Part shown: positions 38 to 31,384 of the stretch, piece by piece
How the letters are laid out: every line of letters starts with the position of its first letter
How positions within the stretch are numbered: position 1 is the first letter of the stretch
Position numbers and translations under genes: made by a program
The notes under the pieces: model-generated
The model's database searches: none
Told to the model about the DNA's origin: nothing
Seen by the model: only the letters and a program-made list of their open reading frames with translations
DNA from: Terriglobia bacterium
GTDB lineage: Bacteria > Acidobacteriota > Terriglobia > Terriglobales > Acidobacteriaceae
Reading direction: 5' to 3'
DNA length: 64,000 nucleotides
NCBI GenBank assembly: GCA_020073495.1
Contig: JAIQFD010000001.1
Coordinates: 496,001 to 560,000, forward strand

Positions 38-1833
<1,796 letters not shown>

Positions 1834-1834
<1 letters not shown>

Positions 1835-1963
1835 GGTGGAGCAGGCCTTTAGGCCTGCATTAATAGAGAGAGAGACAACCGGCTTTAGCCGCTGAGGTAC
1901 CTCGGCGGCTGAAGCCGTCGCTTTTGTTGGCCTGATCCGCAGGGCTAAAGCCCTGCTCCACCC
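1834..1963. repeat. REP pair (family A), compact inverted form
   Basis: The left half has a hairpin GCAGGCC-TTTA-GGCCTGC (1841-1858) followed by GGCTTTAGCCGCTGAGG. The right half mirrors it with CCTCGGCGGCTGAAGCCG and then GCAGGGC-TAAA-GCCCTGC, ending CTCCACCC. The outer ends GGGTGGAGCAGG and CCTGCTCCACCC are inverted copies. The ends match those flanking the RAYT gene near 31 kb, so this looks like a short non-autonomous, REPIN-type element. It occupies almost the whole gap between two convergent genes. Confidence 0.8.
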
Positions 1964-2714: not shown

Positions 2715-3260
2715 ATGCGCAAGCTATCCATCGCATTATTCGTTCTGCTCGCGTTCACCTTGGCTGCTGCCCAGCAGGACAAGAGCAAGCGGCCCAGCCC
2801 TCCGGGGACCGCCGAGGTCACGCTCAGCGGCAAGAAGATCACCGTGGACTACAGCCGGCCAAAGATCGCCGACCCCAAGACCGGAACGCCGCGCAAGATC
2901 TTCGGCGGGCTCGTGCCCTATGGTCAAGTCTGGCGGACGGGCGCCAATGATGCCACGTCGCTCAAGACCGATGCCGACCTCGACATCGGCGGCACCAAGG
3001 TCCCCGCCGGCAGCTACACCGTCTTCACTCTTCCGTCCGAGAGCGGCTGGAAGTTGATCATCAATAAGCAGACGGGAGAGTGGGGCACGAAGTACGACGA
3101 GAAGCAGGACTTCGCGCGTATTCCGATGAAAGCAGAAAAGACCTCAAAGACAGTGGACCCCTTCACCATCTCCTTCGACAAGAAGAGCGAAACCGAGGCC
3201 GCTCTGCACCTGGCCTGGGAGAACACCGACGCGTCGGTTTCGGTCAGACTGAAAAAGTAA
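2715..3260 (+). CDS. DUF2911 domain secreted protein
   Basis: A 181-residue exported protein. Residues 1-19 form a signal peptide ending LAAAQQ. The rest is one DUF2911 domain, recognisable from VTLSGKKITVDYSRPK, the KIFGGLVPYGQVWRTGAND core and LIINKQTGEWGTKYDE. The domain is predicted to be a beta-sandwich of unknown function, common in Bacteroidota and Acidobacteriota. GAGGT before the ATG serves as the ribosome site. It stands alone and converges on the glycine-cleavage operon through a shared terminator. Confidence 0.85.
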   Translation: MRKLSIALFVLLAFTLAAAQQDKSKRPSPPGTAEVTLSGKKITVDYSRPKIADPKTGTPRKIFGGLVPYGQVWRTGANDATSLKTDADLDIGGTKVPAGSYTVFTLPSESGWKLIINKQTGEWGTKYDEKQDFARIPMKAEKTSKTVDPFTISFDKKSETEAALHLAWENTDASVSVRLKK

Positions 3261-29736: not shown

Positions 29737-30147
29737 TTACGGCATGGTTTGGGCAGTGCGATTCCGCAGCAGGTGCCAGGCTTCCATGTAGCGGAAATAC
29801 TTGTTGGTAGTCCGGCGCGGCTCCAGCGTAACCCCCAGATACCCTTCCACTTCACCGATCGGGATCACGTACCAGATCTCTTCCGGAATGATAAAAGCTA
29901 CGACGAATTCGATGTCTTTCTTGGAATACACACCACTCCCGGTGAGGAATTTGCATTGGTAACCGCCTCGCCTATAAAAGTACGTTGATTTCACCTGCAC
30001 ACGGACACAGCGTCCCTTGTGCTCGACGATAAAGTCGTAGCGAGCGGAATCGCCCCAGGGCTTGGAAACGGTAAGGCCGTGGTGGGCGGCGCGGGACATG
30101 AATTGCAATTCGACCCATTCCCCGCGGCGTTTGGGATGCTTGATCAT
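29737..30147 (-). CDS. PD-(D/E)XK endonuclease-like protein
   Basis: A 136-residue protein resembling the PD-(D/E)XK group found in group I intron endonucleases (I-Ssp6803I-like). It opens with RRGEWVELQFMSRAAHHGL, then SKPWGDSARYDFIVE with the candidate catalytic aspartate, then RCVRVQVKSTYFYRRGGY with the QVKS motif, and ends NKYFRYMEAWHLL. All three motif blocks are intact. A fragment of a relative lies on the other strand at 30.5 kb. Its position in a repeat island suggests a mobile or repeat-linked role; cleavage activity is not shown. Confidence 0.75.
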   Translation of the reverse strand: MIKHPKRRGEWVELQFMSRAAHHGLTVSKPWGDSARYDFIVEHKGRCVRVQVKSTYFYRRGGYQCKFLTGSGVYSKKDIEFVVAFIIPEEIWYVIPIGEVEGYLGVTLEPRRTTNKYFRYMEAWHLLRNRTAQTMP

Positions 30148-30187: not shown

Positions 30188-30276
30188 GAGCGCGGCGGAG
30201 GCCGCGCTCGTGTCAGGGCACGCCTTCAGGCGTGCCGCTCAGTTGCGAGATGGATACGGCTTTAGCCGCTGAGGGA
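30188..30276 (+). repeat. Family-A REP cluster
   Basis: Three hairpins: GAGCGCGGC-GGAG-GCCGCGCTC (30188-30209), GGCACGCC-TTCA-GGCGTGCC (30217-30236), and the constant block GGCTTTAGCCGCTGAGGGA (30258-30276). Confidence 0.75.
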
Positions 30277-30482: not shown

Positions 30483-30660
30483 TTGCCTATTGACCACAAT
30501 CTGGAGCGGCTCCAGATTTCCTGTGGAAATCCGCCCGCCCGCTTCGCCGTCCAACTCAACCCCTACCGCCCCGACAACAAATACTTCGGCTACCTCGAGG
30601 CCTGGCACCTGCTGCGACGAAAAGGAGCAGACGAGAAACCGTCGCGCCAGCGACGGCGGG
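30483..30660 (+). pseudogene. 3' remnant of a PD-(D/E)XK nuclease gene
   Basis: The translated frame contains NPYRPDNKYFGYLEAWHLLR, which matches the C-terminal end of the intact nuclease at 29.7 kb (NKYFRYMEAWHLLR) on the opposite strand. The N-terminal two-thirds, including the catalytic blocks, are missing and a stop codon lies just upstream (30477-30479). It is a broken, diverged copy. Confidence 0.65.
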
Positions 30661-30751
30661 TTTTCAGCCCGGGACACGACTCCCGGGAACACACGACGTG
30701 CGACCCCGAGCCGCGCCAAGGCGGCCGGCAGAACCCAGCCCGTCTGAAAAA

Positions 30752-30817
30752 GGGTGGGGCAGGCCTTTAGGCCTGCGTTAAAGGTTCCAAACCAAGGCGG
30801 CTTTAGCCGCTGAGGGA
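30752..30817 (+). repeat. Left REP of the RAYT element (family A)
   Basis: GGGTGGGGCAGG leads into the hairpin GCAGGCC-TTTA-GGCCTGC (30759-30776). After a 22-nt spacer comes GGCTTTAGCCGCTGAGGGA (30799-30817). Confidence 0.8.
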
Positions 30818-30851
30818 CATCGCGCCCATCACAGACAACTGCTGGCTTCGC

Positions 30852-31322
30852 ATGTTAGATGGCGCAGCTATGACCATTCCCTACCGCGGCGTGACCGGGC
30901 ATGGCGCCTACTTCCTAAGTGCTTCCACTTTTATGAAACAATGCCTGCTCCAGTCGGAGCGCATGGCCATGCTTTTCATCGATGTCCTCTACAGCTACCG
31001 CAAGCAGAAGAAGTACTTGCTCCACGGATTTGTTGTCATGCCGGACCATATCCATCTGCTGATCACGCCGACCATCACGCTGGAGCGGAGCGCGCAATTG
31101 ATCAAGGGTGGGTTCTCATTCAGAGCAAAGCGAGACGTCGGAATCGAGAGTGAGATTTGGCAGACCAGCTTCCACGATCACCGTATCCGCGATGCCGACG
31201 ACTACGCCCGCTGCCGGGAATACATCCATCAGAACCCGGTCAAGCGAGGCCTTGCCCTCCGGCCAGAAGATTTTCCTTATAGCTCTGCCAATCCCCGCTT
31301 CGAACTGGACGACGTCCCTTAG
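30852..31322 (+). CDS. REP-associated tyrosine transposase (RAYT, Y1 family)
   Basis: A 156-residue Y1 HUH transposase-like protein. The metal-binding HUH motif is VVMPDHIHLLITP (near residue 64), and the C-terminal helix DDYARCREYIHQNPVKRGL carries the candidate catalytic tyrosine and the NP.KRGL signature of RAYTs. RAYTs nick REP-type hairpins and are thought to spread them. The stop codon TAG is part of the right-hand REP. The ATG at 30852 or 30870 may be the start; neither has a clear ribosome site. It looks intact. Confidence 0.88.
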   Translation: MLDGAAMTIPYRGVTGHGAYFLSASTFMKQCLLQSERMAMLFIDVLYSYRKQKKYLLHGFVVMPDHIHLLITPTITLERSAQLIKGGFSFRAKRDVGIESEIWQTSFHDHRIRDADDYARCREYIHQNPVKRGLALRPEDFPYSSANPRFELDDVP

Positions 31323-31384
31323 TGGCTAAAGCCGAATCCTCTGATGGTTCCCTGAGCCGCAGGCCTAAAGGCCTGCTCCACCCT
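31321..31384 (-). repeat. Right REP of the RAYT element (family A, inverted)
   Basis: GGCTAAAGCC (31324-31333), a spacer, then GCAGGCC-TAAA-GGCCTGC (31359-31376) and CTCCACCCT. It is the inverted counterpart of 30752-30817. Confidence 0.8.

Follow-up and report, generated by a model that had tools for sequence, protein, structure and literature searches.

Does a transposase gene that lies between a matched pair of repetitive extragenic palindromic (REP) sequences move together with them as one element? The question is raised by a stretch of 64,000 nucleotides from a Terriglobia bacterium of the Acidobacteriaceae (contig JAIQFD010000001.1, positions 496,001 to 560,000; hereafter the window), in which a gene for a REP-associated tyrosine transposase (RAYT) is enclosed by matched, inverted, two-hairpin REPs in a unit of 632 bp (30752-31383). 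RAYTs have been put forward as the first bacterial transposases to be domesticated, in part for want of any observed movement of the gene (PMC8266576, PMC6006769, PMC8049555). Here, comparison with related genomes suggests that REP-bounded units have been gained at new loci. The architecture itself is already known, and the evidence for turnover is the interesting, non-routine part.

The two arms of the unit are arranged as GGGTGG-H1-22 nt-H2 on the left and H2'-25 nt-H1'-CCACCC on the right, where H1 and H2 are the outer and inner hairpins. A preliminary description of this DNA had given the guide, both hairpins, the 22-nt spacer and the inverted right side, and had counted the stop codon of the gene as part of the right REP; every feature was confirmed as written, with the stop codon lying in the tail of H2'. 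The predicted fold of H1 has an energy of -8.2 kcal/mol. Chance hairpins were ruled out, since the two arms aligned with a score of 60 versus a maximum of 23 across 60 shuffles, and the reversed arm pattern, searched as a control in its strict form, had zero matches in the genome.

By motif, family profile and fold, the protein is a RAYT (TnpA-REP) of the class 2, single-tyrosine (Y1) type. The open reading frame can be read from 30852 (156 amino acids); ATG 30870 (150 amino acids) is the likelier start, because homology to related units begins there. The HUH motif and C-terminal tyrosine helix named in the preliminary description were borne out as H66-I67-H68 and Y124 (156-residue numbering). 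The sequence matched NCBIfam NF047646 (REP-associated tyrosine transposase) at 107.8 bits versus a cut-off of 80, and Pfam Y1_Tnp at 30.8 bits. The closest solved structure by sequence was 4er8, the Escherichia coli TnpA-REP (5e-10), with the HUH motifs aligned and Y124 placed on Y115; it was also the closest by fold (7.8e-10, predicted model, pLDDT 94.9). The tyrosine context, Y124-IHQ-NP, is the class 2 motif Y---NP, whose N and P are invariant or nearly so among 35 relatives. In the predicted model, the last helix (109-125) bears the tyrosine and is followed by coil, and the C-terminal helix-turn-helix of TIRYT subclass 2.1 is not present in the 150-residue protein.

A second unit with the REP class of the window was found elsewhere in the genome (C3:140588-141181), with a RAYT 66% identical in amino acids to that of the window. 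Homology between the two units spans only AAnGGGTGG to CCACCC, i.e., the outer REP edges, and on the right it stops at the outer REP edge of the window unit. No RAYT was present at the second site in any of 11 relatives with conserved neighbours, the sister species (G001) included. The spacing was that expected without the unit in 8 of these; the remaining three had larger gaps, two of which were read directly and held other coding-looking sequence, and a RAYT was found in none of the three. In the sister species, the site consists of 149 bp of unrelated intergenic DNA. As a separate observation, the RAYT frame of the second unit stays open across the inner hairpin and the spacer as far as H1', within which it ends (L129, about 3105-3170); there, the repeat appears from its reading frame to encode the C-terminus of the protein.

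At the window site, the RAYT was absent, though the mutL-aspS neighbours were present, in G008, G015, G002, G007 (with mutL inverted), G006, G022, G012 and G040. In the sister species, aspS was found together with the left flank (30560-30688); between them lies a different Y1 transposase gene, downstream of aspS (L204 7281-7784, G001:C52), and no RAYT of this clade. As G010 has a RAYT in this region too, Y1 elements seem to have landed there repeatedly. The cupin gene beside the unit is not syntenic in relatives and was unusable as a right flank. This pattern suggests that the gene and its repeats arrived at the window spot as one package, and comparison of the sequences gives good support to the view that what was gained or duplicated is one unit with the two REP edges as its limits. 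The proposal that the gene and both ends form one unit therefore stood, on the edge-to-edge homology with the second unit and the RAYT-free relatives at both sites. For its companion, that the unit may still move, neither a base-exact empty site nor a target duplication was obtained, and such units could also have been placed by recombination or transfer. The search for whole-unit copies and empty sites did yield the second same-class unit, and the window RAYT was not fixed among relatives.

Further RAYT pairs were compared for the edges of their homology. In G028, two RAYTs in the same orientation, 2.3 kb apart, are 82% identical exactly between the outer REP edges TTTGTATCAGGGC and GCCCTGATACAA, and their flanks are unrelated. 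A pair near groL on contig C2 of the genome under study matches at 97.8% identity over 279 bp that end shortly beyond the REP; further on, the two are unrelated. Homology shared by L040 and L059 runs from GTGGAAG to CTTCCAC, that between G007 and L058 goes beyond the left REP, and that between C17 and C12 of G028 extends some tens of bases beyond the REPs. A search of plasmids returned distant RAYTs only, all below 60% identity. In another subgroup, a distant RAYT-like gene with one flank occurs as two 98.7%-identical copies at contig starts (G016, L225 and L226, positions 1-609), which diverge at one point, a case of recent multiplication.

A matched pair of inverted arms, with hairpins particular to the RAYT concerned, accompanies nearly every member of the clade, both here and in related genomes. 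The bracketing is thus not peculiar to the window gene; it is how RAYTs of this clade are usually organised. When three REP foot classes, grouped by hand from the arm outputs, were placed on the RAYT tree, they required 3 changes versus 15.4 expected by shuffling (0 of 200 shuffles as low), and the foot class of the window, GTGGnGCAG, formed one clade with a support of 98/99. RAYT and REP are inherited together.

Genome-wide counts of arms derive from searches and individually retrieved stretches. The strict arm pattern was found 17 times in the genome, 4 times in the two RAYT units and 13 times elsewhere; G004 had 34 such arms and each other relative at most 2, with only one in the sister species. 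The H1 foot GCAG is kept and the apex varies in a paired fashion (GCC, GGC and CGC), both free apex positions being paired in all 23 distinct arms at the loci examined. Spacers are nearly fixed in length (22-26 nt) and free in sequence (ungapped identity of about 0.31). The stand-alone copies are mostly REPINs, i.e., two inverted arms whose inner hairpins are separated by a short stretch, and one of them folds as a single long hairpin (z of -7.7). They have the same outer edges as the RAYT units. Three REPINs checked in the sister species were absent there between conserved genes. Features of the window are collected in the table below.

Table. Positions of the REP-bounded RAYT unit and of a stand-alone REPIN within the window
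Feature	Position	Strand	Description
Stand-alone REPIN	1832..1961		Same class, two arms without a gene; orthologous site of the sister species empty of it
Left outer REP	30752..30776	+	GGGTGG guide 30752-30757, one base, H1 GCAGGCC-TTTA-GGCCTGC 30759-30776
Left spacer	30777..30798	+	22 nt
Left inner hairpin H2 with tail	30799..30817	+	GGCTTTAGCCGCTGAGGGA = GGCTTTAGCC-GCTGAGGGA
RAYT gene	30870..31322	+	150 amino acids from the likely start; stop TAG 31320-31322
Right inner hairpin H2' with tail	31320..31333	-	GGCTAAAGCC at 31324-31333; includes the stop codon
Right spacer	31334..31358	-	25 nt
Right outer REP	31359..31383	-	H1' GCAGGCC-TAAA-GGCCTGC 31359-31376, one base (T), CCACCC

Several other features were observed at or near these repeats. 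A single REP arm of another class lies at 30217-30276 (GGCACGCC-TTCA-GGCGTGCC, then GGCTTTAGCCGCTGAGGGA), and its outer end matches the REP of a RAYT in the sister species (G001:C117, L025). Tandem REP-like arms with the H1 core GCAGGCC and another foot, GGTAGT, resemble a bacterial interspersed mosaic element (L133 3040-3480, C4:204040-204480). In G004, the richest genome in this REP class, many REPs occur alongside a possibly broken RAYT, whose matched stretch is interrupted by a TAA stop (L020 272-739, G004:C94). An intact PDDEXK_5 endonuclease gene (29737-30147, minus strand) lies near the RAYT unit, and the C-terminal remnant of another copy (30517-30641, plus strand), in the opposite direction to the intact gene, lies beside it; a third PDDEXK_5-like gene adjoins a stand-alone REPIN at C1:763 kb.

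The arrangement belongs to a known kind, the REPtron, in its local acidobacterial form, and overlaps with the "TIRtrons" of 2013. REPtrons of E. coli and Stenotrophomonas combine an HUH-Y1 protein, a GT[AG]G guide with a hairpin, inverted flanking REPs and cognate REPs genome-wide; here, GTGG lies one base from H1 and 13 more arms lie outside the two units. The window unit differs in its two-hairpin arms with a spacer of fixed length. In addition, it has been stated that a REPtron does not transpose as a whole (PMC6006769), no evidence for mobility of tnpA-REP has been reported (PMC8266576), and RAYTs have been called vertically inherited single-copy genes (PMC8049555). In contrast to these published single-copy genes without mobility evidence (PMC8266576), RAYT sites here turn over between close relatives, with two units of one class and RAYT-free orthologous sites, a departure from described behaviour rather than from a strict definition. 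In pseudomonads, RAYTs had earlier been suspected of reaching novel sites by duplication or horizontal acquisition (PMC3686654). TIRtrons are acidobacterial RAYT-like genes with terminal inverted repeats (TIRs), some of them double palindromic; the TIRtron/TIRYT group comprises genes of Koribacter versatilis, Granulicella mallensis, Acidobacterium capsulatum and Terriglobus saanensis, one TIR of K. versatilis forms a repeat family, and no claim of unit movement was made (PMC3733652). The window unit shares the terminal inverted repeats and double palindromes, whereas its ends carry a GTGG guide and recur in the dispersed REPINs. Direct protein comparison with this group covered a G. mallensis locus, L065 (47% amino acid identity, matched ends). 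A REPIN likewise has two inverted REPs and forms one long hairpin (PMC3116915; PMC8049555) but is non-autonomous, whereas the window unit is a REPIN enclosing a transposase gene between its arms. IS200/IS605 elements (IS608, ISDra2) are autonomous, bounded by hairpins and of the same nuclease fold, with another tyrosine motif and another organisation of the ends.

The anatomy of the unit, the fold and catalytic residues of the protein, the edges common to units and REPINs, the joint inheritance of REP and RAYT and the lack of a RAYT at orthologous sites are observed. From these, we infer that the RAYT itself does the cutting and moving, with cut positions and strand chemistry as follows. The acidobacterial REPtron would spread, rarely, as a whole unit. 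The RAYT, a single-tyrosine HUH endonuclease, would recognise the GTGG guide and H1, and probably also H2, which lies a fixed distance away, in single-stranded DNA, for example at a replication fork, and would cut at the outer REP edges. The substrate could be either a short REPIN without a gene or the same arms enclosing the RAYT gene, and the cut strand would be joined elsewhere, usually in intergenic DNA near gene ends. One element would then exist in two forms, autonomous in the window unit and non-autonomous in the stand-alone REPINs. The best single mechanism, in which the RAYT acts on the REP-bounded unit that encodes it in the way it acts on a REPIN, is given an even chance, because no base-exact empty site was obtained. 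That the REPtrons of this family are still autonomous transposable elements, the RAYT moving everything from one outer REP edge to the other, its gene included, like a giant REPIN, comes out just short of even.

Several observations weigh against movement of the whole unit. Intergenic DNA around the second unit and the REPINs was diverged or replaced, and no base-exact empty site was found. Queries of joined flanks (U1, U2, U3 and REPINs R1-R3) gave apparent junction-spanning matches, 20-odd bases past the joins, that were not confirmed; in alignments of these candidate loci the REPIN was absent and the exact junction was not seen. The two units of the genome are only 66% alike in protein, too little for one to be a fresh copy of the other. 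The near-identical C2 pair is interrupted by a contig end, so that one edge is visible, and no other contig yielded the missing 5' half of its second copy. Homology between G026 and L049 runs 1.8 kb beyond the right REP, where the two are syntenic, and therefore some units were inherited in place. In both close pairs the copies lie within 2-3 kb, and segmental duplication could account for them. The cupin and TPR genes adjoining the window unit are also missing from relatives. Finally, G010 has a related RAYT beside aspS (58% amino acid identity, same clade, class A REPs as in the window), which leaves some probability for an old insertion at the window site followed by many losses.

The main rival to autonomous movement is recombination or transfer of the gene: the RAYT would mobilise short REPINs only, its gene being relocated either by horizontal transfer with recombination between REPs or between flanking sequences, or by segmental duplication nearby, and REP-edged gene copies would be a by-product. 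We regard this as possible, if clearly on the doubtful side. The 17 dispersed arms of one class offer crossover points and the close pairs are local, but arms of about 70 bp that are only about 75-80% alike are poor substrates for recombination. Moreover, homology stops at the outer edge and not within the arm (U1/U2, the G028 pair and L040/L059), and the sister species, nearly free of REPs of this class, has none of them at the checked sites. An ancestral RAYT at the aspS locus, vertically inherited and lost by most relatives, is improbable. It would account for the gene in the more distant G010, but the closer G001, G008, G015 and G002 have no RAYT there, so repeated losses would be needed, and no RAYT remnants were seen at aspS in relatives at E 1e-6. 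The second site, RAYT-free in 11 of 11, and the window and G010 proteins, which have no supported sister relation, also speak against it. A classical IS200/IS605 insertion sequence, of the same fold and with a weak IS200 profile match (22 bits versus a cut-off of 55), is hardly credible and was dropped on the tyrosine motif (Y---NP of class 2, not Y---Q of class 1), the ends being moreover inverted and matched rather than differing left and right and the RAYT profile scoring far above its own cut-off.

A clade with REP-bounded RAYT units at new loci between close relatives provides material to test RAYT movement directly. The turnover points to a simple model, a single element that occurs with the RAYT gene as the unit and without it as the REPIN. 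If the REPtrons of this family are indeed autonomous, they would be a transitional form, still extant, that links IS200-type insertion sequences with domesticated RAYTs.
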